This document shows, piece after piece, positions 1 through 51,989 of a stretch of DNA of 64,000 bases. Position 1 is the first letter of the stretch, and every line of letters begins with the position of its first letter. Source of the stretch: Hydrangea macrophylla (lineage: Eukaryota > Streptophyta > Magnoliopsida > Cornales > Hydrangeaceae); NCBI GenBank assembly GCA_033977485.1, contig CM066989.1, positions 35,776,595 through 35,840,594 of the forward strand, read 5' to 3'. The position numbers and the translations under genes were made by a program. The notes below the pieces were generated by a model. That model searched no databases. It saw nothing but the letters and a program-made list of their open reading frames with translations, and had not been told where the DNA came from.

Positions 1-95
1 TTTTGATTGCTTCTGCTAGATCTCTGTACAAGTTAAAAGGCCTCGTCGGCCGGTCATGATCCCTAAATCTATTATATTGAATTTGGGGGCGTGAC
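1..95 (+). mobile_element. 3' terminal piece of a family B LTR
   Basis: The last bases of a Ty3/gypsy-type family B LTR, ending in GGGGGCGTGACA at position 95. The same sequence recurs at 5656-5750, where it closes the B block 2557-5750. The rest of this LTR lies outside the window to the left. The DNA joins directly to a reversed family A LTR piece. Confidence 0.8.
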
Positions 96-2556
96 AGTTT
101 GACATAAACTTAAAGCATATAAAAGTAAATTCTCTTTCCAGCAGTTGTTCTCAATTAGCGTAGTCATAAGGTTCTTCCTGATTGTAACCTGAAAAGCCTG
201 AACACGAATGTCCAGGACGCATCAACGCCATCTGCTTCAAGAAGCTGGTGAGTATTAAAAATATAACTTTGAATGTAAAACATACTCACTTACCATTTTC
301 AAATTCCCATTTAATTCCATGAGTTTACATTAGAGTAAAGAGTTCATTTTAGAAAACAACAACAATATCATTTGAAAGCTATAATTCACATATATGTGAC
401 CGTGTATGAAAACAATGCACCAAACTCATCTTACCGACTCTTTTCTCTCGACAAAACCCAACAATCCATTATCACACACCAGTATCTTTGAAATACTCCG
501 ATAGCCACACTTTAGCACAGGGGTGCTAGGGAATGTCCGGTTTACCTCACACTTTGGTCCGGGGTACCAGGGAGTGTCCAATGCCTCACACTTTAATACC
601 TAATCCGCCATGCAAATACCGTAGGAACCCTCACGCAGTATCCAGACTCGGGTATCAGGGAGTGTCCGTAGGCCACACTTTAGCACTACCATGGGTGCCA
701 GGGAATGTCCAAGTTCGGCTTCACACACTTTGACGCTACCATGGTCGTCAGGGAGTGTCCAATTTTGCCACCGTCGCATTTCAAAGACACCCTCGCCGCA
801 ATCTCAATCACAACACACTTTGGTACTCACTTACCAGGGAGTGTCCACAACACAATCTCAACCGCACTCACTATACCACACTGTCCATTACTCTTTTCTA
901 TACTGACCAACACTCACCATGCATGTACAACTGACTCCACATGAATGATATGTGACTTAATACAAAAATATAAAGTACTGGGAATGATAACCATGGATGT
1001 ACGAGAAGAAATCAAATCTTATATTAAACAACCGGTGAATTCATCAAAGAATGCTTTAACATGCTTTTATCGCTATTAGAACACAAGTGGGTCTACTTTG
1101 AAGTAATGCCCTCAAAAATGAGTTATAATTTGTATACATGAATTACATATCAACAGAAAGGTCTTTGAGTCTAGTTTCCAACGCTTCAAACCGTGCGCGT
1201 TTTCGAGTTTCCTAGAGGAAGTTATGGCCATTTTACTAAACGTCGTCAGTGTTGAAAAATGTCAATCGTAGCTCTCGGATTTCACGTAAAACCGAGAGGT
1301 GACAACACTTTAAATCAACGGTACGTCGCGATACGGATGAATTAAGCCGTAGTATTCGAACCACAACTTATTGGAAATAAGATCTTTCATTCCCAATTCA
1401 CAGAATTGATTTTGGTTGAGTTTGAAAAATTACCATTTTTGAGCTTCAAGTTTTCATACGAAAATTAACAATGGTGTTCTTCAAATTAGACTAAACTAAC
1501 AGTAAATAAATATGAGATTACATTCCAAGTGAGTTTAGAATACTCACTGTGATATAGATTGAAGAAGTTGTTGAGAAAGAAACACAAGAACAAGAATTAC
1601 GAATTTCCAATTTCAAGCTTTGGCTATGGAGGATTGAGCTCTTCAAATTCTGAAATTATGAACTCTCTGCACTCTCTTATCTCTCTGTGTGACTCTCTCA
1701 AGCTCTCTATGCTAGAAGTGCAGAATGCGTGTGTTTGAGAGAGTAGGTGAGTGTTTAAATAATTAAGCTTCCACTTGGAGACAATGGCCTAACAATCCAC
1801 TCATTAACCACTAACTTTTAATTAATTGGTGGATTAGTAGAATATGCAAGATGATGTAAACATACACTGATGCACATATAGCTCCACTAATTAGTGTATA
1901 AATAACCAAGTCTCCACTTGGAGACAATGGCCTAACAATCTAATCATTAACCACTAACTTTCTAATCAATTGGTAGTTTATAAGGAATATGCAAGATGAT
2001 GTAAACATACACTGATGCACATATACCTCCACTAATTAGTGTATAAATAACCAAGTCTCCACTTGGAGACAATGGCCTAACTATCCAATCATTAACCACC
2101 AACTTCTAATTAATTGGTAGTTTATAAGGAATATGGAGGATGATGTAAACATACACTGATATTGAAAGGGTAGTGTAGATCGATAATGGTCAAGGTGTGT
2201 TTGGGAATTTAAGCTTATGGCATTAGGAAAACACACATACTACAAGCATTGCCAAACAAGGCCTAAGGAAAATCATTAGCAACATTAATTGTATATAAAG
2301 CAATTGTCCAATCAGTCACTTCCAAAAGATGTGGAAGTTTAGCACCACGCGGACAGTTTTAAACTTAAACTGGTATTTTCGTGACACGGTGTTCATCACA
2401 AAAATACAGAAAATTCATTTAATTGAAAGAAACAATTTTCCGGTTTTATAAAAATTCAGTTTGAGTTAAAAGAATTTATTTTCACCGTTTTGGAAATACA
2501 GATTTGAAATTCAACACAGGTATTGCCAAATTTTATAAAAATCGCATTTTGACCCC
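96..2556 (-). mobile_element. Family A LTR fragment, reversed
   Basis: Reverse-strand piece of the family A LTR, matching the forward copy at 12206-15225. It contains the degenerate 'CACTTT...CAGGGAGTGTCC' minisatellite (about 500-890) and three roughly 144-bp promoter-region repeats (about 1770-2160). The right edge is abrupt: after TTTTGACCCC the sequence switches to family B at about 2557, so the LTR start and any internal region are missing. The left edge carries a deletion relative to 46016-48799. Short reading frames of 66-98 codons here lie in the minisatellite and are not genes. Confidence 0.85.
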
Positions 2557-5500
2557 AGAAATTGACACATGTCAAAATCCTTGCAGGAAACAAACATTTG
2601 GCCATATCATTTTCATTCACCTGGTTTTCAATTCATCCACCTACCACTTTCAAAAAAGAAAAGAAGGTGGCACATGATAGATCATATTTTCATCAATAAA
2701 AAAATCATACTTAATTTAAAAGAAAAACAAATAAGATTTTAAAAAGAAAAAGAAAAGAAAGTGGCACATGATAAATCATATCTTTTTAATAAACTAAAAC
2801 TCTACTTAATTTAAAAGAAAAATAAATAAGATTTTAAAAGAAAAAGAAAAGATATTGGCACATAATAGATCACATCTTACTAATAAATAATGAATTAAAT
2901 GAAAAAGAAAATAAAGTAGGAGTATCAATGTAATAAATTAAAACCTTACCTAATTAAATTAATGAAGCACTACATCTTTTTCTTGCTATATAAACACACA
3001 TCCATGAGTTAATTTTCACACCACTTCATAAGATTATGTTTGGAGAGAGAGCTAGGAAGTAAAAGAGTGAGAATTCTTGTATTTTCCTATCATCAAATCA
3101 AGGTAAGTTCTTTTCTTCTCTATATTTATATAGTTTATAAACACTCACATTTACATTATTTTCAGTAATAATTAGATTCTATTAGCTTAATTTTGGAAGG
3201 GTTAAATTAATTATTAATCTAGAATTAAGAACATAGCTAGATTTGATCAAAATGGTAAAATTTTTATATCTCTTTACTCCAACCACATTAAAATCCGAAA
3301 TTTTAGAGGTAGACTCTTTTAATGCCCAGGAAATACCTCTTAAAACAGTTTTTGATTTGTTTGTACCGTTTGAGTTTTATTTAGGATTCGTCTTAAAGGG
3401 TAAATTGGTCATTTCACATTCTGTGATTTAAATTTGCTAAAATCAACTTTAGATTTGGATTCTCCACGAAATTTCACTCGAGATAGACACTGATTTCACT
3501 TTAAAAGGTTAAGAAATGAGTGAGCTATGGCCATTAGAAGTTTGGAATTACAATCTGTCCAAACAGGGCATTCTGCCCAGTTTATTTCCGAAAATTTCAT
3601 TTACACCCCTGAAAACTGTAAACCAACATATAAAGGTCTACCGATATCGGATTTGATCACGGTTTCAAGCTTAGTACTTCTAATTATGTTTATTTCCATC
3701 TGAAGTATTAATTTTTCAGTTTATGATAATTCTTATATTTTGGTATATTTACAGAATGACCCCTAAACTTTTAAAAAGGGTATTTTTGGTCATTCTGGGA
3801 TTTTGTAAACTCATTATAAATCATTTATATATTCTATAATGATATTATGATAATATATACTGTTTTATAAATTTGTTAATTATAAAACCATAGAATAATA
3901 AATCTTACTACTTATCAATTGATTTAAATAAAGGTTTGATTATTTTATCATAGCTATTATATTTCTTAAACTATGGGAAAAATACAAAAAAAATGTTCTT
4001 ATGGCATTTTATGACCATTAAAAATAGTCCCACACTTAAATTATGGTATTTGGATATGAAAATGGAATTACGGTCCTGTTATGACTATTTTAAAAATAGT
4101 GTTAATAAATAAGTTAGGCCTTGTCAGATTTTAAATTATATAAATAAAAACCCTTATATTTCAGTATTATTCTGTATCATTAGGATATAACAAATAGATA
4201 TTACAATTAGAAATGTTGGGGTACTAAGTACGAATAACTACTAATTTATTTATATCCTTTGGGTAATAAAATTGGTAAAAGAAAAGTAATACGCTATTAA
4301 TATTATGATTTTATAAAGAATCGTTTAACGAATAAATTCTCACCCTTATGGAGATTATATATGAGCTTTACGGCTCAATAGTAACTATTTAAAAAAAAAA
4401 AATAGTATTTTAACTTCCAAAATCTGTAGTAAATAATCGATAACTCGGGAAAATACGCCGTTAATTCCTATAGTCTTGGAATTATATCTAGTATTATATT
4501 TAAGAGTTTGGAGACAATCTGACACCGTTTTCAAATGCAGCTTACTTGTAGGACCCACATTTATGTAAGAAATTATGATTTAGGAACTACTACGGACTCC
4601 AAATGGAGTCCAGTTAGTGATGTTAAACTCGGTGTAGTATAAGGAATGTTATAGTGAAGACATAGAGAAGCCTTAATTACAGTTTTATCCTTATGCTTGC
4701 AACCTATGATTAAATGTCTAGTTTCTTTTACCTGTATTGATGTAGGAACTGTTTCATCGACAATTCCTAAGTCGCCAAGGTGAGTGTTCGTATCCTGTAT
4801 TTAACTCAACTCTATATGTGAGTGTTCATACTCGGTATTCAGTTCAACTCCATATGTGAGTGTTCATATCCTTTTTGCTAATTCTACTCCTCACGAGTGG
4901 ATCTGATTCTACCTTCAGTTATTAATAATATTATACAATTGTTATAATTCATTTCTGGAACATTATCGTTTGGTTCCACTGAAAAAGGAATTATGTTAAT
5001 ATTTGTTATGCCATTGTGCAATTCATTCATTATTCCCAATGTCAATTACCACTACAACGAACTATAAAGTATAGCCCTATGTGGTTGGTCCTATTGGGCC
5101 CATGGAATGAAGCCCAAGTGGCTGGTCCTTTTGGACCCATGAACCCGACTAGCAGGGTTGCCTTTGATCAATGTGCCATGTAATGAAAGGAACGTGTGTG
5201 TGAGTGGGTGGTTGGTAATTTGACATTCATGAAAAGATGCCTTTCGTATAAATATTCTTTGAATCTGTTATAATATTTTGTATTCATCACTATTAATATT
5301 GCTATCTCTTCTATACAAATCCTCTTTATGATTATTATCCAGGTTTATGTTCATTCACTGAGCCTTCTGCTCACACTCTCCAAATGTTTTAAAAACCCTT
5401 TTCAGATGACAATGATATGCTTTACGCTGAACCAAATGAAGAACAAGAGATAGCAATAGAAGGAGAAGACCCTCTCCTAGATGCCCTTGAAGGGTCACTT

Positions 5501-5750
5501 TCTTAGGAGCTCAAATAATGAATCTAAGTATTCCAATGGATACTTTCTTTTCTTGTACTGGATTTAAAGCCTATGTAAAGCCTTAAACTCTAATTGTAAG
5601 TTTGTATTGGTGTGATGGTTGGGGGTCTCTTCGATCCCATTTAATAAAATGAATGTTTTGATTGCTTCTGCTAGATCTCTGTACAAGTTAAAAGGCCTCG
5701 TCGGCCGGTCATGATCCCTAAATCTATTATATTGAATTTGGGGGCGTGAC
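2557..5750 (+). mobile_element. Family B LTR, lacking its first ~230 bp
   Basis: Forward family B LTR from about GAAATTGACACATG to the terminal GGGGGCGTGACA. It holds a TATA-like TATATAAAC (2987-2995), a leader with a consensus 5' splice site (AAGGTAAGT, about 3100), two 38-bp GTGAGTGTTC repeats plus a partial third (about 4781-4876), and a 62-codon frame at 3243-3431 that recurs in sister copies. I regard that frame as LTR sequence and not a gene. The TGTCATGACCCG start is missing because the block is fused to LTR A at its left. Confidence 0.85.
2987..2995 (+). promoter_or_regulatory. TATA box of LTR B
   Basis: TATATAAAC in the middle of LTR B, followed about 40 bp later by a purine-rich leader and a GTAAGT donor-like site. 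The same motif is present in the other B copies, for example at 43841-43849 (+). This is the likely U3/R boundary; the transcription start is inferred, not seen. Confidence 0.5.
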
Positions 5751-8339
5751 AGTTTGACATAAACTTAAAGCATATAAAAGTAAATTCTCTTTCCAGCAGT
5801 TGTTCTCAATTAGCGTAGTCATAAGGTTCTTCCTGATTGTAACCTGAAAAGCCTGAACACGAATGTCCAGGACGCATCAACGCCATCTGCTTCAAGAAGC
5901 TGATGAGTATTAAAAATATAACTTTGAATGTAAAACATACTCACTTACCATTTTCAAATTCCCATTTAATTCCATGAGTTTACATTAGAGTAAAGAGTTC
6001 ATTTTAGAAAACAACAACAATATCATTTGAAAGCTATAATTCACATATATGTGACCGTGTATGAAAACAATGCACCAAACTCATCTTACCGACTCTTTTC
6101 TCTCGACAAAACCCAACAATCCATTATCACACACCAGTATCTTTGAAATACTCCGATAGCCACACTTTAGCACAGGGGTGCTAGGGAATGTCCGGTTTAC
6201 CTCACACTTTGGTCCGGGGTACCAGGGAGTGTCCAATGCCTCACACTTTAATACCTAATCCGCCATGCAAATACCGGAGGAACCCTCACGCAGTATCCAG
6301 ACTCGGGTATCAGGGAGTGTCCGTAGGCCACACTTTAGCACTACCATGGGTGCCAGGGAATGTCCAAGTTCGGCTTCACACACTTTGACGCTACCATGGT
6401 CATCAGGGAGTGTCCAATTTTGCCACCGTCGCATTTCAAAGACACCCTCGCCGCAATCTCAATCACAACACACTTTGGTACTCACTTACCAGGGAGTGTC
6501 CACAACACAATCTCAACCGCACTCACTATACCACACTGTCCATTACTCTTTTCTATACTGACCAACACTCACCATGCATGTACAACTGACTCCACATGAA
6601 TGATATGTGACTTAATACAAAAATATAAAGTACTGGAAATGATAACCATGGATGTACGAGAAGAAATCAAATCTTATATTAAACAACCGGTGAATTCATC
6701 AAAGAATGCTTTAACATGCTTTTATCGCTATTAGAACACAAGTGGGTCTACTTTGAAGTAATGCCCTAAAAAATGAGTTAAATTTTGTATACATGAATTA
6801 CATATCAACAGAAAGGTCTTTGAGTCTAGTTTTCAACGCTTCAAACCGTGCGTGTTTTCGAGTTTCCTAGAGGAAGTTATGGCCATTTTACTAAAGTCGT
6901 CAGTGCTGAAAAATGTCAATCGTAGCTCTCGGATTTCACGTAAAACCGAGAGGTGACAACACTTTAAATCAACGGTACGTCGCGATACGGATGAATTAAG
7001 CCGTAGTATTCGAACCACAACTTATTGGGACTAAGATCTTTCATTCCCAATTCACAGAATTGATTTTGGTTGAGTTTGAAAAATTACCATTTTTGAGCTT
7101 CAAGCTTTCATACGAAAATTAACAATGGTGTTCTTCAAATTAGACTAAACTAACAGTAAATAAATATGAGATTACATTCCAAGTGAGTTTAGAATACTCA
7201 CTGTGATATAGATTGAAGAAGTTGTTGAGAAAGAAATACAAGAACAAGAATTACGAATTTCCAATTTCAAGCTTTGGCTATGGAGGATTGAGCTCTTCAA
7301 ATTCTGAAATTATGAACTCTCTGCACTCTCTTATCTCTCTGTGTGACTCTCTCAAGCTCTGTATACTAGAAGTGCAGAATGCGTGTGTTTGAGAGAGTAG
7401 GTGAGTGTTTAAATAATTAAGCTTCCACTTGGAGACAATGGCCTAACAATCCACTCATTAACCACTAACTTTTAATTAATTGGTGGATTAGTAGAATATG
7501 CAAGATGATGTAAACATACACTGATGCACATATAGCTCCACTAATTAGTGTATAAATAACCAAGTCTCCACTTGGAGACAATGGCCTAACAATCTAATCA
7601 TTAACCACTAACTTTCTAATCAATTGGTAGTTTATAAGGAATATGCAAGATGATGTAAACATACACTGATGCACATATACCTCCACTAATTAGTGTATAA
7701 ATAACCAAGTCTCCACTTGGAGACAATGGCCTAACAATCCAATCATTAACCACTAACTTCTAATTAATTGGTAGTTTATAAGGAATATGGAGGATGATGT
7801 AAACATACACTGATATTGAAAGGGTAGTGTAGATCGATAATGGTCAAGGTGTGTTTGGGAATTTAAGCTTATGGCATTAGGAAAACACACATACTACAAG
7901 CATTGCCAAACAAGGCCTAAGGAAAATCATTAGCAACATTAATTGTATGTAAATCAATTGTCCAATCAGTCACTTCCAAAATCTGTGGAAGTTTAGCACC
8001 ACGCGGACAGTTTTAAACTTAAACTGGTATTTTCGTGACACGGTGTTCATCACAAAAATACAGAAAATTCATTTTATTGAAAGAAACAATTTTCCGATTT
8101 TATAAAAATTCAGTTTGAGTTAAAAGAATTTATTTTCACCGTTTTGGAAATACAGATTTGAAATTCAACACAGGTATTGCCAAATTTTATAAAAATCGCA
8201 TTTTGACCCCAAAAGTAATTTCAATTATGAGATCAGTTAAGAAATAAATTTTACACATAAGAATTGAAATTTAAAATAAAGGCAGACAATGTATATGTAA
8301 TTTTAAATATGACAATGCAAGAAAATGCGGGTTATTACA
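5751..8339 (-). mobile_element. Family A LTR, reversed, 3' end deleted
   Basis: Reverse-strand LTR A. Its true start (TGTAATAAC read on the minus strand) is at 8339, directly downstream of a minus-strand polyprotein, so this is a 3' LTR. The distal end lacks the terminal few hundred bases found in 12206-15225: the junction keeps GACAGTTTGA and then jumps to the ATAAACTTAAAGC region. It carries three 144-bp repeats (about 7430-7810). Confidence 0.85.
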
Positions 8340-8384
8340 CTCTTCCTCCCTTAAACAGGATTTCGTCCCCGAAATCAAGACTAA
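8340..8384 (-). other. Polypurine tract region of family A (-)
   Basis: On the minus strand the sequence between the polyprotein stop and the LTR start includes TTAAGGGAGGAAGAG just before TGTAATAAC. This is the position and composition of a Ty3/gypsy plus-strand primer. The same arrangement is present at 12161-12205 (+) and next to 48800 (-). Confidence 0.7.
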
Positions 8385-9540
8385 CTAGTCATGAAACAAC
8401 TCCGGGTACTTCTTCCTCATATCAGCTTCAACTTCCCACGAGGCTTCATTCTCGTCGCGGTGATTCCACTGAACCTTCACCAACGGAATTTCCTTATTTC
8501 TCAGCTTCTTGATATTCTGATCTAGAATCTTCACAGGTCTCTCCTTGTAAGAAACGTTATATCTCGTCTCAATATCGTCATAAATAACCACGTGCGAGGG
8601 GTCTCGTATGTACTTTCTTAGCATACTCACATGGAATACATTGTGAATCCCAGACATCTTTGGTGGTAGCGCCAGTTGATAGGCCACTTTCCCGACACGT
8701 TCCAAAATCTCGAATGGTCCGATGAATCTCGGAGCTAGTTTCCCTCTTTTGAGACCAAAACGTACCACTCCTCGGGTCGGTGAAACCTTAAGGAGTACGT
8801 GATCTCCAACACTAAACTCCAGATCTTTTCGGCGTTGATCAGCATAACTCTTATACCTGCTCTGAGCGGTTCTCATTCTTTCCTTGACCAAGATAATCTT
8901 CTCGTTGGTTTCTCTAACCAAATCCGGTCCCAACAACTCCGTGTCACCAACTTCTGCCCAACATAACGGAGAACGACATGGTCGTCCGTACAGTGCTTCG
9001 AACGGAGCCATACCGATACTCGCGTGATAACTATTGTTAGAGGCAAATTCAACCAACGGCAAGTGTGTCTCCCAAGATTCTTCAAAATCGATCACACAAG
9101 CCCTGAGCATGTCTTCCATGATCTGATTAACACGCTCAGTTTGCCCATCTGTCTGAGGGTGAAAAGCAGTACTCATCTTGAGCGAAGTTCCCATAGCTTC
9201 TTGCAGACTTTCCCAAAATCCAGAAGTAAAACGCGCGTCACGGTCTGACACAATCGTCACAGGTGCACCGTGAAGTCGCACCACTTGTTGTATGTACATC
9301 CGGCTCATCTTTTCCACCGGGTATGTCATACTGTAAGCGATAAAATGAGCCGACTTTGTCAATCGATCCACAATTACCCAAATAGCGTCATGATTCTGCT
9401 GTGATCGAGGAAATCCTACAACAAAATCCATCGTAATGTGCTCCCATTTCCAACCAGGAATAGGTAAAGGTTACAACAATCCTGACGGTCTCTGATGTTC
9501 GGCCTTGACTTGCTGACACGTCAAACACTTGGATACAAGC
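8385..9540 (-). pseudogene. pol: Family A chromovirus polyprotein remnant: integrase, GPY/F, chromodomain
   Basis: C-terminal part of a Ty3/gypsy chromovirus polyprotein that would insert element cDNA and target it through a chromodomain. The open stretch 8385-9431 (348 codons) starts at the first integrase aspartate (MDFVVG) and keeps the SDRDARF and TDGQTER motifs, giving a D,D(35)E core. It then has the GPF-type module ([19 protein letters not shown]) and a C-terminal chromodomain ([17 protein letters not shown]). The frame continues upstream to about 9540 but is broken by a TAA at 9471-9473, where the sister copy at 48845 has a Gln codon. At about 9540 it is cut by LBD sequence. Reverse transcriptase, RNase H, protease and gag are absent. 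It is a dead fragment; the lineage (Tekay-like) is inferred from the chromodomain and LTR style. Confidence 0.9.
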
Positions 9541-10626
9541 CGACTTGGTGCATGCGAGTATAACAGAAGACGGTGCAGAAGTGACTGTTCCTTGGCTCCC
9601 TACTTTCAATATGCTGGGAGTGTGAAGGATTATGAGGCAATTCACGGCCTTTTCGGATATAGGAATTTTCTACGCCTTATTGAAAGGGTACCTGAGGTAG
9701 ATCATCTACAAACTATCAAATCCCTTGTGTTTGAAGCCACAGCTAGGCTTCAGGATCCCATTTTGGGTTGTGTTTCTTACATCTTTTTTCTCGAACAACA
9801 AGTTCTTGAAACGAAAGAACAAGTCTCACAACTTCAAGCTCAATCAAAAGAAGAGTCACCCAAACAATCCAAAGAGCCTGATCCAGATCCTTGGCTCAAC
9901 TATGCCATGGTAGATCTAGATCAAGACATAGAAAACCCTCGAAAGTGTTCCAATCTCATTTCTCACACCACAACTACTCCAATCTCTTCTGAAATCTCTA
10001 GCCCTACCTGTATTCCCCCTGTCACTCAAATTTGTACAACCTCTCCTTGGTCTAATATGATCCAGTCCTTACTGTCTAGCAACAACCAACAAACCTCTCC
10101 AAGTCTGTTGGATCTCGCTACTCCCAACACAATTTCTCCAGTCCGGTCCTTGCTATCTAGCAACAACCACCAAACTTCTTTAAATCCATTGGATCTCGCT
10201 GTTCCCAACACAATTTCTCCAGTCCAGTCCTTACAATCTAGCACCAACCACCAAACCTCTCCAACACCACTGGATCTCGCTACTCCCGACGCAATTTCTC
10301 CAGTCTCTCGTCCTGCCCCCACCACCTCTGTTACTCCAACTTGCTCCTGCTGGTCTAATTTAGTCCAACACTCACAATCTAACAAGTCCCGGATTCCCTT
10401 GGAGCAAACGAAAAAACCAGAGGTCCCAAGATATCCAAATCTCCTCCCAAATCTTCAAGCAAGTTCATCAAAAGCACCTACTCCATCCACTGATCCTTAC
10501 TCTTTCTTCACTGTTAATAACTTAGCTCAAAGCTCCTTCTTGGGTTTAATTGACATGGTGGAGAGTCAACGTGTCTCTAAAAGAAAAGGAAAAAGGGTCG
10601 CGAGGTGGCTTGAGCCTCAAAACTAA
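9541..10626 (+). pseudogene. LOB-domain (LBD) gene copy 1, 5'-truncated
   Basis: LBD proteins are plant-specific DNA-binding transcription factors. This copy begins inside the zinc motif: the reading frame 9529-10626 opens in antisense polyprotein DNA, and LBD identity starts at GACEYNRRRCRSDC, so the first Cys of CX2CX6CX3C is gone together with the start Met. The rest of the LOB region follows (FGYRNFLRLIERV, DPILGCVSY, LEQQVLETKEQV coiled coil), then a Ser/Thr/Pro-rich tail with three 27-residue repeats ending in ISPV, and an intact C-terminus (RVARWLEPQN). Compared with the copy at 41183 the C-terminal frame is undamaged, but the DNA-binding motif is broken. There is no native promoter; the gene sits between inverted family A polyprotein pieces. 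It is a captured gene fragment, probably non-functional. Confidence 0.85.
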
Positions 10627-11828
10627 GACTCTTTTTTTTTTTGTGTTTTCTTTAAAAAAAAAAAAAATTCAAAAATTCAAAAAAAAAAAAAAAAAAAAAA
10701 GGGAAGTGGAATGAACATCATGGTCCGTATTCGAGGTAGTCCCTGTACGTCGAGTGTGCGTGGGATTGAGCCCATATGTCTTACTATGCGTGTCCCTCCA
10801 CCAGCTTAATGTAGTTTGGATCATTGGGTATTGTTTTATAGGACAAATGGGAGGGTAAGCATCCCAGGACGGTATTGTCCTCAGAAGTAAGTCCCGAAGA
10901 ACATTAACCCAAGGTTCTGTGGAACGGACTATAGGATCTATATGGTTGCTGAAAAGCGTGTAGGATGTCGTTAGCATTTGATCTCTGGAGGGAAGCCTCA
11001 CGTTGGCAGAACTCAGTTCCCACTCAGCAAAATCCAAATGTACATTTGTATCATTGTAACTTTTCATATCTAAAAAAAATATAAAAATAAATAAATAAAA
11101 TCCCTTTTCAGCACTATCTTCGCTTCTTATGCAATGTACCCTAAACATTGGGCTATCAGTTCAAGAATCAGCTGTGGAAATACTATCTCTTGTTAGTAAC
11201 ATAAGTGCACTTTCTAAAAAGAGGGTTCTAATCCCCATCACTTTCACGATCCACTTGTGTTTGCTATCATCAATTTAAACTAGCTCAAAGGCTGACATGA
11301 CATGTTTGATCATTCCTAATCCTTCATTCAGGCCCAATTCGATACAATGGCAGCACATGCAAATCAATACTGCGAACACTGATATTACCAAATCCAAACA
11401 GCACTAGTGCATTCGCAATTGTCCAAATCATCTCATTGCCAAATCAATAGGTTGCTCCACTTTCTCAAAACTTTTACTCTCTTTTAAAACAAAACAAAAA
11501 AAATCAAAAAGGAAAAAGGAAAAAGCAAAAAGAAAAAGAAAACATGAAAAAAAAGAGAGAGAGTGTGCGTCGGCAGCAGAGAAAACAGAAAAAGAAAAAG
11601 TAAAGGAAGAGAGAGAGTGTCTCGACAAAAAAAAAGCATAAATATTCTCTCTCTCCCTCATTTCTTATTCACTCCTCCTCCTCGAACGCAACTCTTCCCT
11701 CATCTGTGCCGATCAAGGATCGTGTAAATACATGAGCAAACAATCATATGTGTTGTTCCCATCCATCCAGTACATGCATTGTTTCTAAACCCTATACCAA
11801 CAGTCTGATACCCCACAAGCCTTTGGAA
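10627..11828 (+). other. Tail cassette of LBD copy 1 with a private insert
   Basis: After the LBD stop come A-rich tracts (about 10653-10700), then a segment (10706-11070) that recurs at 18500-18870 (-), 28140-28365 (+) and 42352-42715 (+). The next part, about 11100-11720, is found only here. It is A/G-rich, with a TATA-like GCATAAATATTC near 11634 followed by CT-rich leader-like DNA. From about 11723 to 11828 the shared tail resumes (GTGTAAATACATGAGC to CCACAAGCCTTTGG) and stops at polyprotein DNA. An open frame on the minus strand (10669-11148) recurs in other copies, but most base differences change amino acids, so I do not call it a gene. Confidence 0.6.
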
Positions 11829-41182: not shown

Positions 41183-42187
41183 ATGGTTTTTAAGAAGGCT
41201 GTTAGTCGTTGTGGTGCATGCGAGTATAACAGAAGACGATGCAGAAGTGACTGTTCCTTGGCTCCCTACTTTCTGTACGCAGGGAGTATGAAGGATTATG
41301 AGGCAATTCACGAATTTTTCGGATATAGGAATTTTCTGCGCCTTATTGAAAGGGTCTCTGAGGCAGATCATCAACAAACTATCAAATCCATTGTGTATGA
41401 AGCCACAACCAGGCTTCAGGATCCCATTTTGGGTTGTGTTTCCTACGTCTTTTTCCTCGAACAACAAGTTCTAGAACTGAAGGAACAAGTCTCACAACTT
41501 CAAGCTCAATCAAAAGAAGAGTCACCCAAACAATCCAAAGAGCCTGATCTAGATTCTTGGCTCAACTATGCCATGGAAGATCTAGATCACAACATAGAAA
41601 GCCCTCGAAAGTGTTCCAATCTCATTTCTCCCACCACAACTACTCTAATCTCTTCAGAAATCTCTAGCCCTACCCATATCCCCCCTGCCACTCAAATTTG
41701 TACAACTTCTCCAAGTCTGTTGGATCTCACTGCTCCCAGCACGATCTCTCCAGTCCAGTCTTTGCAATCTAACAACAACCACCAAACTTCTCCAAGTCTG
41801 TTGGATCTCACTGCTCCCAACACGATCTCTCCAGTCCGGTCTTTGCAATCTAACAACAGCCACCAAACTTCTCCAAGTCTGTTGGATCTCACTGCTCCCA
41901 ACACGATCTCTCCAGTCCGGTCTTTACAATCTAGCAACAACCACCAAACTTCTCCAAGTCCGTTGGATCTCACTATTCCCAACATAATTTCTCCAGTCTC
42001 TCGTCCTATCCACACCACCTCTATTACTCCAACTTGCTCCTGCTGGTCTAATTTAGTCCAACACTCACAATCTAAAAAGTCCCAGATTCTTTTGGATCAA
42101 ACGAAAAAAAATGGAGGTCCCAAAATATCCAAATCTCCCCCCAAATCTTCAAGTAAGTTCATCAAAAACACCTACTCCGTCCACTGA
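41183..42187 (+). CDS. LOB-domain (LBD) transcription factor copy 2, frameshifted near the 3' end
   Basis: Encodes a class I-like LBD protein, a plant-specific nuclear DNA-binding regulator of organ and lateral-organ development. From the ATG at 41183 (preceded by A-rich AATAATGG) the zinc motif CX2CX6CX3C uses Cys10, 13, 20 and 24. The GAS-type block is diverged (FGYRNFLRLIERV), the DP-x2-GC motif is at residues 80-85, and a coiled coil (LEQQVLELKEQVSQLQ) at 92-107. A Ser/Thr-rich tail then has about four 27-residue repeats ending ISPV (41701-42000). An upstream in-frame ATG at 41075 would add 36 low-complexity residues and is unlikely. After residue ~308 an 8-A run (about 42104-42111) gives one base more than copy 1, so the frame stops at 42187. 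The conserved C-terminus continues in the next frame to 42314. There is no intron. Function as a regulator is possible, since the LOB domain is complete. Confidence 0.78.
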   Translation: MVFKKAVSRCGACEYNRRRCRSDCSLAPYFLYAGSMKDYEAIHEFFGYRNFLRLIERVSEADHQQTIKSIVYEATTRLQDPILGCVSYVFFLEQQVLELKEQVSQLQAQSKEESPKQSKEPDLDSWLNYAMEDLDHNIESPRKCSNLISPTTTTLISSEISSPTHIPPATQICTTSPSLLDLTAPSTISPVQSLQSNNNHQTSPSLLDLTAPNTISPVRSLQSNNSHQTSPSLLDLTAPNTISPVRSLQSSNNHQTSPSPLDLTIPNIISPVSRPIHTTSITPTCSCWSNLVQHSQSKKSQILLDQTKKNGGPKISKSPPKSSSKFIKNTYSVH

Positions 42188-42314
42188 TCCTTACTCTTTC
42201 TTCACTGTTAATAACCTAGCTCAAAACTCTTTCTTGGGTTTAATTAAAGAGATGGAAAGTCAACATGTCTTTAAAAGGAGAAGAAAGAAAGTCACGAGAT
42301 GGCTTGAGCCTTAG
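42111..42314 (+). pseudogene. Displaced C-terminus of LBD copy 2
   Basis: The +1-frame continuation of the LBD gene: EVPKYPNLPPNLQ, SFFTVNNLAQNSFLGLI and the basic end KVTRWLEP, matching the in-frame tail of copy 1 (ending at 10626). It becomes separate only because of the homopolymer length difference just before it. It is not an independent gene. Confidence 0.8.
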
Positions 42315-42315
42315 A

Positions 42316-43243
42316 ACTAAGGCTCTTTTTGTTTTAAAATAAAAAAAAAAAAAATGAACATCATGGTCCGGTTTCGAGGTAGTCCTTGTACGTTGAGTGT
42401 GCGTGGGATTGAGCCCACATGTCTTACTACGCGTGTCCCTCCACCAGCTTAATGTAGTTTGGACCTTTGGGTATTGTTTTATAGGGCAACTGGGAGGGTA
42501 AGCATCCCAGGACGGTATTGTCCTCAGAAGTAAGTCCTGAAGAGCATTAACCCAGGGTTCTGTGGAACGGACTATAGGATCTATATGGTTGCTGAAAAAC
42601 GCGTAGGATGTCATTAGCATCCAACCTCTGAAAGGAAGCCTCACGTTGGCAGAACTCTGTTCCCACTCATCAAAATCCAAATGTACATTTGTATCATTGT
42701 AACTTTTCATATTTAAAAAAAAAAAAAAATGTTCTTGGAAATTTGGTCCGCCCTTGCAATTCAAATCATTTGTTGGATGGGGTGGCCTTACCAACGAACA
42801 ATGGGTTGATGAAATGTAAGGGTTTTCTTGTTGTTCTCTTTTCGCTCTTATATGTATCAAAAAAATATCATCAATAAAAAGAGAATGTCAAAGATTGTGT
42901 AAATACATGAGCAACCAGTCATATGTGTTGTTTCCCAGCCATTCAGGCCATGCACTATTTCTATACCCTGTACCAACAGTCTGATTCTCCATCACCCACA
43001 AGCCTTTGGTCACTCTCGCAAAAGGCCAATACTTCAATCACTGCCTAAAATTTCACTCCTTACAAAGCATCAAAATGCCACACTGGGGCAGTTTCTCCAC
43101 TACTAAATATATATGCATTGTCTGCTTTGTATAAGTACATATATTTAAAAAAAAAAAAATAATAAATAAATAAATTAAAAAAAAAAAAATTTAAGCACCT
43201 AGTGAGTTAAGTTTGGGGACCAAACTTTCTAAGTAGGGGAGAA
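42316..43243 (+). other. Tail cassette, most complete copy, between LBD and LTR B
   Basis: Follows the LBD stop: a T/A-rich end with an A14 tract (about 42341-42354); segment 1 (42355-42714); an A13 tract; segment 2 (42730-42890, GTTCTTGGAAATTTGG to GAGAATGTCAAAG); segment 3 (42894-43145, GTGTAAATACATGAGC to ACATATATTT); two A-rich tracts; then TTTAAGCACCTAGTGAG and the PPT-like AAGTAGGGGAGAA before LTR B. A 206-codon minus-strand frame (42240-42860) runs across three segments and an A-tract, so it is unlikely to be a gene. The origin of the segments is not recognised. Confidence 0.65.
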
Positions 43244-46015
43244 TGTCATGACCCGAATAATTGAAAATAAAAATTTAGAAAATTATGGAAATATCTTTTA
43301 AATATATATATATATATATATGCCTAAATTACGAAATTAATGTGAATTTCTGACCACATCTCACAGCTTAACTTTACCTGATTTTATGTTTTGCAGTGTA
43401 AAAAAATACCTGAAATTGACACATGTCAAAATCCTTGCAGGAAACAAACATTTGGCCATATCATTTTCATTCACATGGTTTTCAATTCATCCACCTACCA
43501 CTTTCAAAAAAGAAAAGAAGGTGGCACATGATAGATCATATTTTCATCAATAAAATAAATCATACTTAATTTAAAAGAAAAACAAGTAAGATTTTAAAAG
43601 AAAAAGAAAAGAAATTGGCACATGATAAATCATATCTTTTTAATAAACTAAAACTCTACTTAATTTAAAAGAAAAATAAGTAAGATTTTAAAAGAAAAAG
43701 AAAAGATAGTGGCACATAATAGATCACATCTTACTAATAAATAATGAATTAAATGAAAAAGAAAATAAAGTAGGAGTATCAATGTAATAAATTAAAACCT
43801 TACCTAATTAAATTAATGAAGCACTACATCTTTTTCTTGCTATATAAACACACATCCATGAGTTATTTTTCACACCACAAATTCCTCACCACTTCATAAG
43901 ATTATGTTTGGAGAGAGAGCTAGGAAGTAAAAGAGTGAGAATTCTTGTATTTTCCTATCATCAAATCAAGGTAAGTTCTTTTCTTCTCTATATTTATATA
44001 GTTTATAAACACTCACATTTACATTATTTTCAGTAATAATTAGATTCTATTAGCTTAATTTAGGAAGTGTTAAATTAATTATTAATCTAGAATTAAGAAC
44101 ATAGCTAGATTTGATCAAAATGGTAAAATTTTTATATCTCTTTACTCCGACCACATTAAATTCCGAAATTTTAGAGGTAGACTCTTTTAATGCCCAGGAA
44201 ATACCTCTTAAAACAGTTTTTGATTTGTTTGTACCGTTTGGGTTTTATTTAAGATTTTTCTTAAAGGGTAAATTGGTCATTTCACATTCTGTGATTCGAA
44301 TTTGCTAAAACCAACTTTAGATTTGGATTCTCCACGAAATTTCACTCGAGATAGACACTGATTTCACTTAAAAAGGTTAAGAAATGAGTGAGCTATGACC
44401 ATTAGAAGTTTGGAATTACAATCTGTCCAAACAGGGCATTCTGCCCAGTTTATTTCCGAAAATTTCTTTGACACCCCTGAAAACTGTAAACGAACATATA
44501 AAGGTCTACCGATATCGGATTTGATCACGGTTTCAAGCTTAGTACTTCTAATTATGTTTATTTCCATCTGAAGTATTAATTTTTCAGTTTATGATAATTC
44601 TTATATTTTGGTATATTTACAGAATGACCCCTAAACTTTTAAAAAGGGTATTTTTGGTCATTCTGGGATTTTGTAAACTCATTATAAATCATTGATATAT
44701 TCTATAATGATATTATGATAATATATACTGTTTTATAAATTTGTTAATTATAAAACCATAGAATAATAAATCTTACTACTTATCAATTGATTTAAATAAA
44801 GGTTTGATTATTTTATCATAGCTATTATATTTCTTAAACTATGGGAAAAATACAAAAAAAAATGTTTTTATGGCATTTTATGACCATTAAAAATAGTCCC
44901 ACACTTAAATTATGGTATTTGGATATGAAAATGGAATTACGGTTCTGTTATGACGATTTTAAAAATAGTGTTAATAAATAAGTTAGGCCTTGTCAGATTT
45001 TAAATTATATAAATAAAAACCCTTATATTTCAGTATTATTCTGTATCATTAGGATATAACAAATAGATATTACAATTAGAAACGTTGGGGTATTAAGTAC
45101 GAATAACTACTAATTTATTTATATCCTTTGGGTAATAAAATTGGTAAAAGAAAAGTAATACGCTATTAATATTATGATTTTATAAAGAATCGTTTAACGA
45201 ATAAATTCTCACCCTTATGGAGATTATATATAAGCTTTACGGCTCAATAGTAACTATTTAAAAAAAATAGTATTTTAACTTCCAAAATCTGTAGTAAATA
45301 ATCTATAACTCGGGAAAATACGCCGTTAATTCCTATAGTCTTGGAATTATATCTAGTATTATATTTAAGAGTTTGGAGACAATCTGACACCGTTTTCAAA
45401 TGCAGCTTACTTGTAGGACCCACATTTATGTAAGAAATTATGATTTAGGAACTACTACGGACTCCAAATGGAGTCCAGTTAGTGATGTTGAACTCGGTGT
45501 AGTATAAGGAATGTTATAGTGAAGACATAGATAAGCCTTAATTACAGTTTTACCCTTATGCTTGCAACCTATAATTAAATGTCTAGTTTCTTTTACCTGT
45601 ATTGATGTAGGAACTGTTTCATCGTCAATTCCTAAGTCGCCAAGGTGAGTGTTCGTATCCTGTATTTAACTCAACTCTATATGTGAGTGTTCATACTCGG
45701 TATTCAGTTCAACTCCATATGTGAGTGTTCATATCCCTTTTGCTGATTCTACTCCTCACGAATGGATCTGATTCTACTTTCAGTTATTAATAATATTATA
45801 CAATTGTTATAATTCATTTTTGGAACATTATCGTTTGGTTCCACTGAAAAAGGGATTATGTTAATATTTGTTATGCCATTGTGCAATTCATTCATTATTC
45901 CCAATGTCAATTACCACTACAACGAACTATAAAGTATAGCCCTAAGTGGTTGGTCCTATTGGGCCCATATAATGAAGCCCAAGTGGCTGGTCCTTTTGGA
46001 CCCATGAACTCGACA
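43244..46015 (+). mobile_element. Family B LTR, 3' ~500 bp missing
   Basis: Starts TGTCATGACCCG, preceded by a PPT, so it reads as a 3' LTR of the unit carrying LBD copy 2. TATA at 43841-43849, donor-like AAGGTAAGT near 43968, the recurrent 65-codon frame (44111-44308) and three GTGAGTGTTC units (about 45645-45740) are present. It ends at about 46012 (ACCCATGAACTCGAC) inside a GACAGTTTGA overlap with a reversed LTR A. Confidence 0.88.
43841..43849 (+). promoter_or_regulatory. TATA box of LTR B downstream of LBD copy 2
   Basis: TATATAAAC followed by ACACATCCATGAG leader DNA and, about 125 bp on, an AAGGTAAGT donor-like site. It is identical in placement to 2987-2995. Transcription from here would run away from the LBD gene. 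Confidence 0.5.
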
Positions 46016-48799
46016 GTTTGAAGGATCGATTCCGTCCCAAACGTCGAACAACATAAAACCATTAATCAGAGTAGAGCAATCAAGGCTTATAAAATTTTTC
46101 TAACTTATTACATCTTATGATACGGGGTCAACTAAGGCACAGACCGCCTTGAAATAAGACAATAACTTAAAGTCTATTACAGTCATCCTTATTACAAAAC
46201 TAATTCATAACTTAAAGCACATAAACTTAAAGCATATAAAAGTAAATTCTCTTTCCAGCAGTTGTTCTCAATTAGCGTAGTCATAAGGTTCTTCCTGATT
46301 GTAACCTGAAAAGCCTGAACACGAATGTCCAGGACGCATCAACGCCGTCAGCTTCAAGAAGCTGGTGAGTATTAAAAACATAACTTTGAATGTAAAACAT
46401 ACTCACCATTTTCACATTCCCATTTAATTCCATGAGTTTACATTAAAGTAAAGAGTTCATTTTAGAAAACAACAACAATATCATTTGAAAGCTATAATTC
46501 ACATATATGTGACCGTGTATGAAAACAATGCACCAAACTCATCTTACCGACTCTTTTCTCTCGACAAAACCCAACAATCCATTATCACACACCAGTATCT
46601 TTGAAATACTCCGATAGCCACACTTTAGCACAGGGGTGCCAGGGAATGTCCAGTTTGCCTCACACTTTGGTCCGGGGTACCAGGGAGTGTCCAATGCCTC
46701 ACACTTTAATACCTAATCCGCCATGCAAATACCGGAGGAACCCTCACGCAGTATCCAGACTCGGGTATCAGGGAGTGTCCGTAGGCCACACTTTAGCACT
46801 ACCATGGGTGCCAGGGAATGTCCAAGTTCGGCTTCACACACTTTGACGCTACCATGGTCGTCAGGGAGTGTCCAATTTTGCCACCGTCGCATTTCAAAGA
46901 CACCCTCGCCGCAATCTCAATCACAACACACTTTGGTACTCACTTACCAGGGAGTGTCCACAATACAATCTCAACCGCACTCACTATACCACACTGTCTA
47001 TTACTCTTTTCTATACTGACCAACACTCACCATGCATGTACAACTGACTCCACATGAATGATATGTGACTTAATACAAAAATATAAAGTACTGGGAATGA
47101 TAACCATGGATGTACGAGAAGAAATCAAATCTTATATTAAACAACCGGTGAATTCATCAAAGAATGCTTTAACATGCTTTTATCGCTATTAGAACACAAG
47201 TGGGTCTACTTTGAAGTAATGCCCTAAAAAATGAGTTATAATTTGTATACATGAATTACATATCAACAGAAAGGTCTTTGAGTCTAGTTTCCAACGCTTC
47301 AAACCGTGCGCGTTTTCGAGTTTCCTAGAGGAAGTTATGGCCGTTTTACTATAAGTCGTCAGTGCTGAAAAATGTCAATCGTAACTCTCGGATTTCACGT
47401 AAAACCGAGAGGTGACAACACTTTAAATCAACGGTACATCGCGATACGGATGAATTAAGCCGTAGTATTCGAACCACAACTTATTGGGACTAAGATCTTT
47501 CATTCCCAATTCACAGAATTGATTTTGGCTAAGTTTGAAAAATTACCATTTTTGAGCTTCAAGTTTTCATACGAAAATTAACAATGGTGTTCTTCAAATT
47601 AGACTAAACTAACAGTAAATAAATACGAGATTACATTCCAAGTGAGTTTAGAATAATCACTGTAATATAGATTGAAGAAGTTGTTGAGAAAGAAATACAA
47701 GAACAAGAATTACGAATTTCCAATTTCAAGCTTTGGCTATGGAGATTTGAGCTCTTCATATTCTGAAATTATGAACTCTCTGCACTCTCTTATCTCTCTG
47801 TGTGACTCTCTCAAGCTCTCTATGCTAGAAGTGCAGAATGCGTGTGTTTGAGAGAGTAGGTGAGTGTTTAAATAATTAAGCTTCCACTTGGAGACAATGG
47901 CCTAACAATCCACTCATTAACCACTAACTTTTAATTAATTGGTGGATTAGTAGAATATGCAAGATGATGTAAACATACACTGATGCACATATAGCTCCAC
48001 TAATTAGTGTATAAATAACCAAGTCTTCACTTGGAGACAATGGCCTAACAATCTAATCATTAACCACTAACTTTCTAATCAATTGGTAGTTTATAAGGAA
48101 TATGCAAGATGATGTAAACATACACTGATGCACAAATAGCTCCACTAATTAGTGTATAAATAACCAAGTCTCCACTTGGAGACAATGGCCTAACAATCCA
48201 ATCATTAACCACTAACTTCGAATTAATTGGTAGTTTATAAGGAATATGGAGGATGATGTAAACATACACTGATATTGAAAGGGTAGTGTAGATCGATAAT
48301 GGTCAAGGTGTTTTTGGGAATTTAAGCTTATGGCATTAGGAAAACACACATACTACAAGCATTGCCAAACAAGGCCTAAGGAAAATCATTAGCAACATTA
48401 ATTGTATGTAAAGCAATTGTCCAATCAGTCACTTCAAAAATCTGTGGAAGTTTAGCACCACGCGGACAGTTTTAAACTTAAACTGGTATTTTCGTGACAC
48501 GGTGTTCATCACAAAAATACAGAAAATTCATTTTATTGAAAGAAACAATTTTCCGGTTTTATAAAAATTCAGTTTGAGTTAAAAGAATTTATTTTCACCG
48601 TTTTGGAAATACAGATTTGAAATTCAACACAGGTATTGCCAAATTTTATAAAAAATCACATTTTGACCCCACAAGTAATTTCAATTATGAGATCAGTTAA
48701 GAAATAAATTTTACACATAAGAATTGAAATTTAAAATAAAGGCAGACAATGTATATTTAATTTTAAATATGACAATGCAAGAAAATGCGGGTTATTACA
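46016..48799 (-). mobile_element. Family A LTR, reversed, almost complete
   Basis: Reverse-strand LTR A with its start at 48799, next to a minus-strand polyprotein and PPT, so it is a 3' LTR. It keeps the AGTTTGAAGGATCG to TTAAAGCAC region deleted from the copies at 96 and 5751. It lacks only the terminal ~90 bp (ending CGGGGCGTGACA). Minisatellite about 46615-47010; three 144-bp repeats about 47880-48260. Confidence 0.88.
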
Positions 48800-48844
48800 C
48801 TCTTCCTCCCTTAAACAGGATTTCATCCCCGAAATCAAGACTAA

Positions 48845-50568
48845 CTAGTCATGAAACAACTCCGGGTACTTCTTCCTCATATCAGCTTCAACTTCCCACG
48901 AGGCTTCATTCTCGTCACGGTGATTCCACTGAACCTTCACCAACGGAATTTCCTTATTTCTCAGCTTCTTGATATTCTGATCTAGAATCTTCACAGGTCT
49001 CTCCTTGTAAGAAACGTTATATCTCATCTCAATATCGTCATAATTAACCACGTGCGGGGGGTCTCGTATGTACTTTCTTAGCATACTCACATGGAATACA
49101 TTGTGAATCCCAGACATCTTTGGTGGTAGCGCCAGTTGATAGGCCACTTTCCCGACACGTTCCAAAATCTTGAATGGTCCGATGAATCTCGGAGCTAGTT
49201 TCCCTCTTTTGAGACCAAAACGTACCACTCCTCGGGTCGGTGAAACCTTAAGGAGTACGTGATCTCCAACACTAAACTCCAGATCTTTTCGGCGTTGATC
49301 AGCATAACTTTTATACCTGCTCTGAGCGGTTCTCATTCTTTCCTTGACCAAGGAAATCTTCTCGTTGGTTTCTCTAACCAAATCCGGTCCCAACAACTCC
49401 GTGTCACCAACTTCTGCCCAACATAACGGAGAACGACATGGTCGTCCGTACAGTGCTTCGAACGGAGCCATACCGATACTCGCGTGATAACTATTGTTAT
49501 AGGCAAATTCAACCAACGGCAAGTGTGTCTCCCAAGATTCTTCAAAATCGATCACACAAGCCCTGAGCATGTCTTCCATGATCTGATTAACACGCTCAGT
49601 TTGCCCATCTGTCTGAGGGTGAAAAGCAGTACTCATCTTGAGCGAAGTTCCCATAGCTTCTTGCAGACTTTCCCAAAATCCAGAAGTAAAATGCGCGTCA
49701 TGGTCTGACATAATCGTCACAGGTGCACCGTGAAGTCGCACCACTTGTTGTATGTACATCCGGCTCATCTTTTCCACCGGGTATGTCATACTGTAAGCGA
49801 TAAAATGAGTCGACTTTGTCAATCGATCCACAATTACCCAAATAGCGTCATGATTCTGTTGTGATCGAGGCAATCCTACAACAAAATCCATCGTAATGTG
49901 CTCCCATTTCCAACCAGGAATAGGTAGAGGTTGCAACAATCCTGACGGTCTCTGATGTTCGGCCTTGACTTGCTGACACGTCAAACACTTGGATACGAAC
50001 TCGGCCACATCCTTCTTCATGCCTTCCCACCAAAAATTTCTCTTCAAATCCTTGTACATCTTAGTTCCTCCCGGGTGAACTGTATACCTTGATTTATGTG
50101 CTTCTTCCAGAATATCCTTCCTAAGTTCTCCAACATCTGGCACACATAATCTATTCCTGCAACGATACCCTCCATCGATTCCCACCTTCCATTCTGTCGG
50201 GTCTTTTTCTGACATCTTTACGAACCACGTCCGAAACTTCTCATCTTCTTTCTGAGCTTCAATAACGTGGTCGACAAGAACAGGCTGTAGGATAAGACAT
50301 CCAAACAGTTGTCCTTCTCCTCCTTCAGCACTCTGTACATCGAACTCCGCCAATGTCTCCAAAGCTCGCCACTCTCTAACCATTAAGGAGGCGATCGTCT
50401 CCCGAGTCTGTCGACTCAAAGCATCAGCGACCACATTAGCTTTACCGGGGTGATACTCTAACGTGAAGTCGTAATCTTTGATCAGCTCCATCCATCTGCA
50501 TTGCCTCATGTTCAACTCTTTCTGTGTGAATAAGTATTTTAGGCTCTTGTGATTGGACAATTGCTTTA
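48845..50568 (-). pseudogene. pol: Family A chromovirus polyprotein remnant: RNase H end to chromodomain
   Basis: Longest polyprotein piece, about 570 codons, open throughout. In order: the end of RNase H ([15 protein letters not shown]...[14 protein letters not shown], residues 11-55); the integrase zinc region (His160, His167, Cys197, Cys200); the DDE core (Asp230, Asp291, Glu327, spacing D,D35E); the GPF module (residues 464-480); and a chromodomain (about 528-575). In the second Asp motif SDHDAHF replaces SDRDARF of the sister copy, both changes being G-to-A-type at CG sites. There is no native start: the frame opens in an antisense LTR A fragment through a TTG codon at 50575. Protease, RT and gag are missing, so it cannot be autonomous. 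Confidence 0.92.
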
Positions 50569-51989
50569 TATACAATTAATGTTGCTAATGATTTTCCTTA
50601 GGCCTTGTTTGGCAATGCTTGTAGTATGTGTGTTTTCCTAATGCCATAAGCTTAAAGTTGGTGACACGGAGTTGTTGGGACGATTATCGATCAGGGAGTG
50701 TCCCAAACACACCTTGACCATTATCGATCTATACTACCCTTTCAATATCAGTGTATGTTTACATCATCCTCCATATTCCTTATAAACTACCAATTAATTA
50801 GAAGTTAGTGGTTAATGATTGGATTGTTAGGCCATTGTCTCCAAGTGGAGACTTGGTTATTTATACACTAATTAGTGGAGCTATATGTGCATCAGTGTAT
50901 GTTTACATCATCCTCCATATTCCTTATAAACTACCAATTGATTAGAAAGTTAGTGGTTAATGATTAGATTGTTAGGCCATTGTCTCCAAGTGGAGACTTG
51001 GTTATTTATACACTAATTAGTGGAGCTATATGTGCATCAGTGTATGTTTACATCATCTTGCATATTCTACTAATCCACCAATTAATTAAAAGTTAGTGGT
51101 TAATGAGTGGATTGTTAGGCCATTGTCTCCAAGTGGAAGCTTAATTATTTAAACACTCACCTACTCTCTCAAACACACACATTCTGCACTTCTAGCATAG
51201 AGAGCTTGAGAGAGTCACACAGAGAGATAAGAGAGTGCAGAGAGTTCATAATTTCAGAATTTGAAGAGCTCAATCCTCCATAGCCAAAGCTTGAAATTGG
51301 AAATTCGTAATTCTTGTTCTTGTATTTCTTTCTCAACAACTTCATCAATCTATATCACAGTGAGTATTCTAAACTCACTTGGAATGTAATCTCATATTTA
51401 TTTACTGTTAGTTTAGTCTAATTTGAAGAACACCATTGTTAATTTTCGTATGAAAGCTTGAAGCTCAAAAATGGTAATTTTTCAAACTCAACCAAAATCA
51501 ATTCTGTGAATTGGGAATGAAAGATCTTAGTCCCAATAAGTTGTGGTTCGAATACTACGGCTTAATTCATCCGTATCGCAACGTACCGTTGATTTAAAGT
51601 TTTGTCACCTCTCGGTTTTACGTGAAATCCGAGAGCTACGATTGACATTTTTCAGCACTGACGACTTTTAGTAAAACGGCCATAACTTCCTCTAGGAAAC
51701 TCGAAAACGCGCACGGTTTGAAGCGTTGGAAACTAGACTCAAAGTCCTTTCTGTTGATATGTAATGCATGTATACAAATTATAATTCATTTTTGAGGGCA
51801 TTACTTCAAAGTAGACCCACTTGTGTTCTAATAGCGATAAAAGCATATTAAAGCATTCTTTGATGAATTCACCGGTTGTTTAATATAAGATTTGATTTCT
51901 TCTCGTACATCCATAGTTATCATTCCCAGTACTTTATATTTTTGTATTAAGTCACATATCATTCATGTGGAGTCAGTTGTACATGCATA
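50569..51989 (+). mobile_element. Family A LTR fragment, plus strand
   Basis: Plus-strand LTR A from about ACAATTAATGTTGC to CATGCAT, lacking the start and the distal third. It contains three 144-bp repeats (about 50760-51140), the leader and the GTGAGTATTCTAAACTCAC inverted element (51360-51378). Its left edge shares TGATTGGACAATTG with the polyprotein, a microhomology join. A 47-bp patchwork insertion lies at 50656-50702. Confidence 0.85.

Follow-up and report, generated by a model that had tools for sequence, protein, structure and literature searches.

A 64,000-bp window of the Hydrangea macrophylla genome (C8:35776595-35840594; assembly of 2.22 Gb in 19 contigs) carries an array of long terminal repeat (LTR) retrotransposon pieces from two families, here called A and B. 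We tentatively read it, with a little less than even confidence, as a mosaic of truncated elements whose unintegrated, incomplete complementary DNAs (cDNAs) became end-joined with one another and with a broken chromosome. Captured cDNA is suggested because only 3′ LTRs carry internal sequence, tail-to-tail joins lie near LTR 3′ ends, and some termini keep leader bases that adjoin the LTR. ‘The window’ refers throughout to the whole stretch; coordinates are counted from its first base, and negative values or values above 64000 lie in flanking sequence.

Fifteen LTR blocks of the two families follow one another strictly as + - + - over positions 1-51988, with no same-strand neighbours. This arrangement had been proposed in a sequence-only reading of the window and is confirmed by self-alignment, probe mapping and terminal motifs, on which our block calls rest. 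The organization into units of the form LTR-, internal, LTR+, with LTR 5′ ends directed inwards, is likewise borne out. Seven head-to-head joins are interleaved with six tail-to-tail joins. The units are, in order, b8- / #3+; b9- polyprotein / LOB b10+; #4- LOB-internal / chromodomain #5+; #6- / LOB-internal #7+; #8- / #9+; #10- s38 / LOB #11+; and b11- polyprotein / b12+ (A blocks are numbered with #, B blocks with b). Element types represented in the array are B with polyprotein, B-LOB, A-LOB, A-chromodomain and A-s38, and three of the seven units have internal regions of different kinds on their two arms. Repeated fold-back of one molecule, an origin suggested earlier, does not account for units with arms of different element types.

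The window is the best portion of a longer cluster. In a hand-compiled list of 32 blocks in ~141 kb (LTR pairs of the same element merged; a diverged B-like LTR at -48185 and an A fragment at 103198 excluded; ~3.6 kb outside coverage), the strand switches in 27 of 31 neighbour pairs. One B-,A+ stretch of 5.65 kb is duplicated directly in tandem (98.98% identity across 2560 bp); without the duplicate the strand switches in 25 of 29 pairs. Binomial tails, assuming independent blocks, are 1.7e-5 and 5.2e-5, respectively. Alternation fails on both flanks (B-,B- at the left; B-,A-,B- at the right). The probability of (1/2)^14 given earlier for the pattern is too small because one stretch is tandem-duplicated and the window is the best part of a longer cluster; the alternation stands, and the independence behind that figure is partly wrong. 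Outside the cluster, 12 neighbouring LTR pairs less than ~25 kb apart were present among the matches listed (29 A and 22 B, from the best 40 scored matches per family), and all 12 are direct. Repeats wrongly joined during assembly, which highly repetitive and inverted sequence would favour, are a very unlikely source of the array, given that its arms differ by 1-3%, that the tested joins have their own breakpoints and filler, and that the pattern extends through 141 kb. The differences between arms claimed earlier hold up: each of 11 long A blocks shares 98.4-99.8% identity with its closest counterpart in the cluster.

Both LTR families are Ty3-type. The B LTR (3.0 kb; type copy 12206-15225, TGTAATAACCCGC...GGGGCGTGACA) adjoins a polyprotein end in which SH3_Tf2-1 and Integrase_H2C2 exceed Pfam cut-offs and Chromo and rve fall under them (E 3e-4 to 1e-3); with an integrase and a chromodomain, B is, by its predicted domains, a Ty3-type chromovirus. 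LTR, primer-binding site (PBS) and polypurine tract (PPT) are all present in B. The PBS is one that we take to match initiator methionine transfer RNA (tRNA). The A LTR (~3.3 kb, TGTCATGACCCG...GGGGGCGTGACA) is preceded by a PPT. Eight outside loci with A relatives comprise elements with 2.1-2.4-kb internals on C5, C13 and C15 and single LTRs on C1, C11, C12, C16 and C18; all eight end in GACA, and seven have perfect 5-bp target duplications, the 5′-truncated C15 element being the exception. Thus, A has the TG...CA LTR and the target duplications (7/8 loci) of an LTR retrotransposon.

The first line of evidence is a bias towards 3′ LTRs. Allowing at most one mismatch in the PBS, we found eight PPT-LTR joins and no PBS in the window, where two 2-mismatch PBS matches lie within an unrelated solo LTR. 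Over 144 kb the tally is 16 PPT-LTR joins to three PBS, after removal of a PPT match at 72045 that lacks a genuine tract and a PBS-like match not at an LTR end (65444); the three PBS (b1, b7 and #13) are read as belonging to LTRs of longer elements. All window LTRs with an attached internal region are 5′-truncated 3′ LTRs. The six tail-to-tail joins involve 12 termini, of which eight (#3, b10, #5, #6, #7, #8, #10 and b11) lie less than 100 nt from the LTR 3′ end, and the other four lie ~271, 600, 660 and 927 nt from it (distances read by eye).

The second line of evidence concerns the bases beyond the LTR. In B copies with a PBS (b1, b7, L038, L039 and L040), the LTR is followed by GGATTTAG, an 8-nt leader, and then by TGGTATCAGAGC. 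We compared 13 outside B LTR ends chosen as best matches (12 plus L036), of which one (L045) was illegible; the 12 legible ends all stop at GACA before unrelated DNA, so that none keeps the leader. In the cluster, eight B 3′ termini enter other DNA, a count that leaves out b1 and b7 (PBS present), b13, b11 and other pieces cut before the LTR end. The full leader is present in four of the eight: b10 continues with GGATTTAG plus 1-2 nt and then A; b15 with GGATTTAG plus 1 nt and then an inverted stretch 81% identical to B internal sequence over 59 bp; b16 with GGATTTAG plus 2 nt and then DNA of unassigned origin; and b3, which has two changes at its LTR end, with GGATTTAG, 23 nt of LTR start and then A. 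A fifth terminus, at -44444, has 4-5 nt of leader. Against 0/12, Fisher's test gives 0.014 for 4/8 and 0.0036 for 5/8. Among A termini, #3 (with its tandem copy) and #10 retain GTT beyond the LTR end, and #12 ends in GACA followed by G.

Kept-leader ends are rare, yet they also occur outside this locus. A genome-wide pattern of leader plus TG without the third PBS base is found at 28 sites, two of them in the cluster (b10 and b16); it misses b15 and b3 because it requires TG and a perfect LTR end. Ten of the 28 are single-base PBS variants. The 16 others that we inspected comprise seven PBS judged by eye to be degraded, one PBS deletion and eight ends that enter other DNA, one of these being an LTR-leader-LTR join (L072). 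The deletion case, L071, was rejected as a join, having a leader with a PBS deletion. Two of these eight ends, L066 and L067, are separated by 21 kb (C13:89.08-89.10 Mb). Several B polyprotein matches occur around them on both strands, and the stretch C13:88.99-89.12 Mb is possibly a second array of the alternating kind.

Ordinary nested insertion by integrase in both orientations, with later deletions and inversions, would fit several facts: the families are abundant, B is young genome-wide, the cluster contains longer elements with PBS, and a solo LTR with a target duplication sits in #5. We nevertheless consider it improbable, since it is at odds with the 8 to 0 bias towards 3′ LTRs and with the kept leader bases. 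In addition, a single A or B block, #12, retains two complete LTR ends and carries no internal region, the other pieces being truncated; it has no target duplication, in contrast to seven of the eight outside A loci. Self-integration by integrase, proposed earlier, is likewise disfavoured where termini retain unprocessed leader. Of the origins put forward in the sequence-only reading, retrotransposon cDNA combined with end joining fits best, and end joining rather than integrase is the likely assembler of the array.

We infer that the pieces are minus-strand cDNA products started at the tRNA primer. Synthesis beginning there would yield a complete 3′ LTR with leader, and its early arrest would leave the 5′ side truncated. 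Two arrested ends, paired or ligated, would then give a head-to-head dimer (LTR-, int-, int+, LTR+), and unprocessed LTR ends would serve to ligate one dimer to the next, tail to tail. Later changes would include tandem duplication, trimming and ordinary insertions. A narrower version, in which the locus is a chromosomal cDNA trap of head-to-head dimers of unfinished minus-strand cDNAs from several co-active types, with tRNA-primed ends intact, is possible but doubtful.

Recurrence of the joins was assessed by aligning 18 probes of 200 bp, covering 14 window joins, to the 144-kb cluster and a further 22 loci. J1 and J2 each have one further copy, both in the direct 5.65-kb tandem duplicate, and the other window joins have no close second copy in this set. 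Weaker matches across the centre are J8 to its own palindrome (80%) and J9 and J13b, which match barely beyond one side; the J12 probe matches the J4 region at 79%. None of the 14 joins met by these probes showed the sign of inverted segmental duplication, the same join in an inverted copy. Genome-wide, J3 gave a full match in 1 of the best 40 scored of 1307 candidates, and the other 39 match the B half only. Two pairs were rejected as duplicated joins: LOB region/B (11149-15225 and 76563-80635) and A/s38 (37782 and 84385) both belong to the native internal make-up of non-autonomous elements. A single inverted join at J4/J12 was set aside, and the two were counted separately, with a caveat, because their A edges are ~59 bp apart and the match across the join is only 79%.

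Local copying at the DNA level would have multiplied pieces of a few resident elements in both orientations, through template switches or inverted duplications arising as DNA was replicated or breaks were repaired. It is an unlikely explanation. In its favour, besides the common origin of the A LTRs described below, joins J8 and J9 are palindromic, the J10 filler originates 25 kb away, one direct tandem duplication is proven, and an inverted pair covers J4 and J12. Yet inverted copying of units already present should repeat joins, and of the tested window joins J1 and J2 alone have close further copies, in direct orientation. Nor does local copying lead one to expect the restriction to 3′ LTRs (8 to 0), the closeness of joins to LTR ends or the retained leader.

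Several observations weigh against the cDNA capture that we prefer, some of them being those that favour local copying. The inverted pair (12895-18914 and 48273-42310; 6.05 kb, 95.3%) spans J4 and J12, which are possibly one ancestral join altered later. The 11 A LTRs of the cluster form a single local clade against 14 outside copies (support 100/99) with short inner branches, and their top identity to those copies is only 94.4-95.5%; cDNA drawn from genome-wide sources does not predict such a clade. The clade carries three kinds of internals (LOB, s38 and chromodomain); gene conversion within the locus, template switching to a single LTR or a source nearby may have produced it. L041, a LOB-A element from outside the cluster, is 93% identical over the internal region and LTR start and only ~87% over the LTR body. 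B shows no local clade, since cluster and outside copies interleave among the best matches listed. Three of the eight B termini lack the leader (-54801 and -52219 end at GACA, and b5 stops 2 nt short). That of b16, whose flank is unassigned, may be a degraded native leader, and b13 was rejected as a kept leader, being a 5′ LTR with a leader deletion. Finally, the head-to-head dimer step is one that we infer, and the joins are known from the assembled sequence alone.

A non-autonomous lineage moving as an inverted-LTR unit, another of the origins proposed earlier, is highly improbable and largely refuted. LTR 3′ ends face outwards on both sides of each unit and could in principle be used by integrase. 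However, content and breakpoints differ between units, J3 occurs once among the best 40 scored of 1307 candidates, and all 12 close outside pairs among the matches listed are direct. As only J1 and J2 have close second copies in the sequence compared and J3 is single-copy (best 40 of 1307), neither a unit that moves with inverted LTRs nor, for the most part, the copying of a single palindrome accounts for the array.

At yeast chromosome breaks the 3′ LTR is a hotspot for Ty1 fragments, and in wild-type cells 40 of 56 Ty1 inserts contain cDNA-only bases (PMC10802722). The hydrangea array resembles these inserts in its 3′ LTR hotspot and cDNA-only extra bases and, on our reading, in replication intermediates as the source and in end joining; it differs in being a natural, alternating, many-piece plant array rather than single inserts in a break assay. 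Complex LTR elements formed by template switching (PMC1950507) are similarly fusions of parent elements at the cDNA level, but they were inserted as complex elements, whereas here the pieces are head-to-head with unprocessed-looking ends. Ty1 autointegration and 2-LTR circles (PMC4751563) share inverted LTR products and LTR-end joins with the array, in which b3 reads LTR-leader-LTR start; there one circle is involved, and here a chromosomal array of several element types. Long tandem LTR arrays are known in plants for Cassandra (PMC7215508), where they are direct, unlike the alternating array described here. A relative of A likewise forms a direct tandem array of five LTRs and four internals (L017-L019, C13:4680000-4709999), flanked by a single 5-bp target duplication, CATAG. 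No alternating LTR array was found in the open-licence literature searched.

Features of the array, with positions in the window
Feature	Position	Strand	Remarks
A LTR #2, 3′ tail	1..96	+	LTR begins at -3098
B LTR piece b8	102..2560	-	both ends truncated; tandem duplicate of piece left of window
A LTR #3	2555..5751	+	5′-truncated; 3′ end GACA, then GTT, then B- (J2)
B LTR b9	5757..8339	-	3′ LTR, lacks 271 nt at 3′ end
B polyprotein end on b9	8340..9536	-	integrase, SH3, chromodomain; J3 head-to-head with LOB element near 9540
Non-autonomous LOB-carrying B element, 3′ part	9546..12205	+	LOB open reading frame (open to 10626), downstream region, polyprotein-end remnant, PPT
B LTR b10	12206..15225	+	complete 3′ LTR; leader GGATTTAG next, then A- (J4)
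A LTR #4	15235..17962	-	3′ LTR, ~660 nt missing at 3′ end
LOB-element internal 3′ region and PPT on #4	17963..18914	-	
Chromodomain-type polyprotein end on #5	18891..19553	+	
A LTR #5	19597..25066	+	3′ LTR, split by solo LTR; lacks last 76 nt
Third-family solo LTR within #5	20168..22405	+	ends GACA; 5-bp target duplication CAAAT; ordinary insertion
J6 filler (tail-to-tail)	25067..25159	.	presumably retroelement RNase H coding sequence, judged by eye
A LTR #6	25160..28141	-	~94 nt missing at 3′ end
LOB-element internal 3′ region and PPT on #7	28139..28884	+	J7 head-to-head at 28140
A LTR #7	28885..32239	+	3′ LTR, ~11 nt missing at 3′ end
A LTR piece #8	32240..33830	-	78 nt missing at 3′ end; J8 and J9 are palindrome centres
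A LTR piece #9	33828..34374	+	547 bp
J10 filler	34375..34488	.	107 bp match 59689-59795 (- strand), 94%
A LTR #10	34489..37776	-	complete 3′ LTR, one base absent near end; GTT and filler next
s38 internal, non-autonomous A type of C5, C13, C15	37777..40638	-	on #10
LOB-carrying A-type internal and PPT	40862..43243	+	LOB open reading frame 41075-42187
A LTR #11	43244..46014	+	3′ LTR, ~600 nt missing at 3′ end
B LTR b11	46015..48799	-	3′ LTR, ~70 nt missing at 3′ end
B polyprotein end on b11	48800..50575	-	576-aa open frame
B LTR piece b12	50747..51988	+	final block

Non-autonomous elements of both families carry open reading frames (ORFs) with a LOB domain (9546-10626 in the B type and 41075-42187 in the A type). 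For the B-type ORF there are no fewer than 40 full-length matches of 98-100% identity (the ORF itself counted; best 40 of 623 candidates), spread over 15 contigs. Three dispersed copies are each bordered by a B-like LTR end on one side and by a B-like PPT with its LTR start on the other. The closest outside copies of the A-type ORF are 97% identical. Between the two types, non-silent (dN) and silent (dS) divergence is 0.063 and 0.215 in the LOB domain (dN/dS ~0.29), and 0.136 and 0.256 over the whole aligned ORF; these values suggest constraint in the past. Within the B type, the domain of the window copy differs from three others by two non-silent and no silent changes, too few to judge. No LTR element with a LOB domain was found in the open-licence literature searched.

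To the right of the array, 52183-54091 and 62100-64000 form a direct duplication (99.0%) that extends beyond the window to ~65417, and tandem repeats with a 59-base period occupy 60655-61334. A 409-aa ORF at 56900-58129 encodes a retrotransposon gag domain and is not part of the array. No Rfam family reaches its gathering score in the window, which also contains no tRNA gene.

A second lead is the LOB gene present in both families, in which retroelements have multiplied a gene for a plant transcription factor. To our knowledge, integrase-independent capture of retrotransposon cDNA has been known mainly from yeast break assays. LTR ends with leader and without PBS can be counted genome-wide as a simple test of capture. 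If the narrower cDNA-trap version is true, the array is a natural fossil of reverse-transcription intermediates. A plant array with yeast-like signs would mean that unintegrated cDNA can build long, palindrome-rich chromosome segments.

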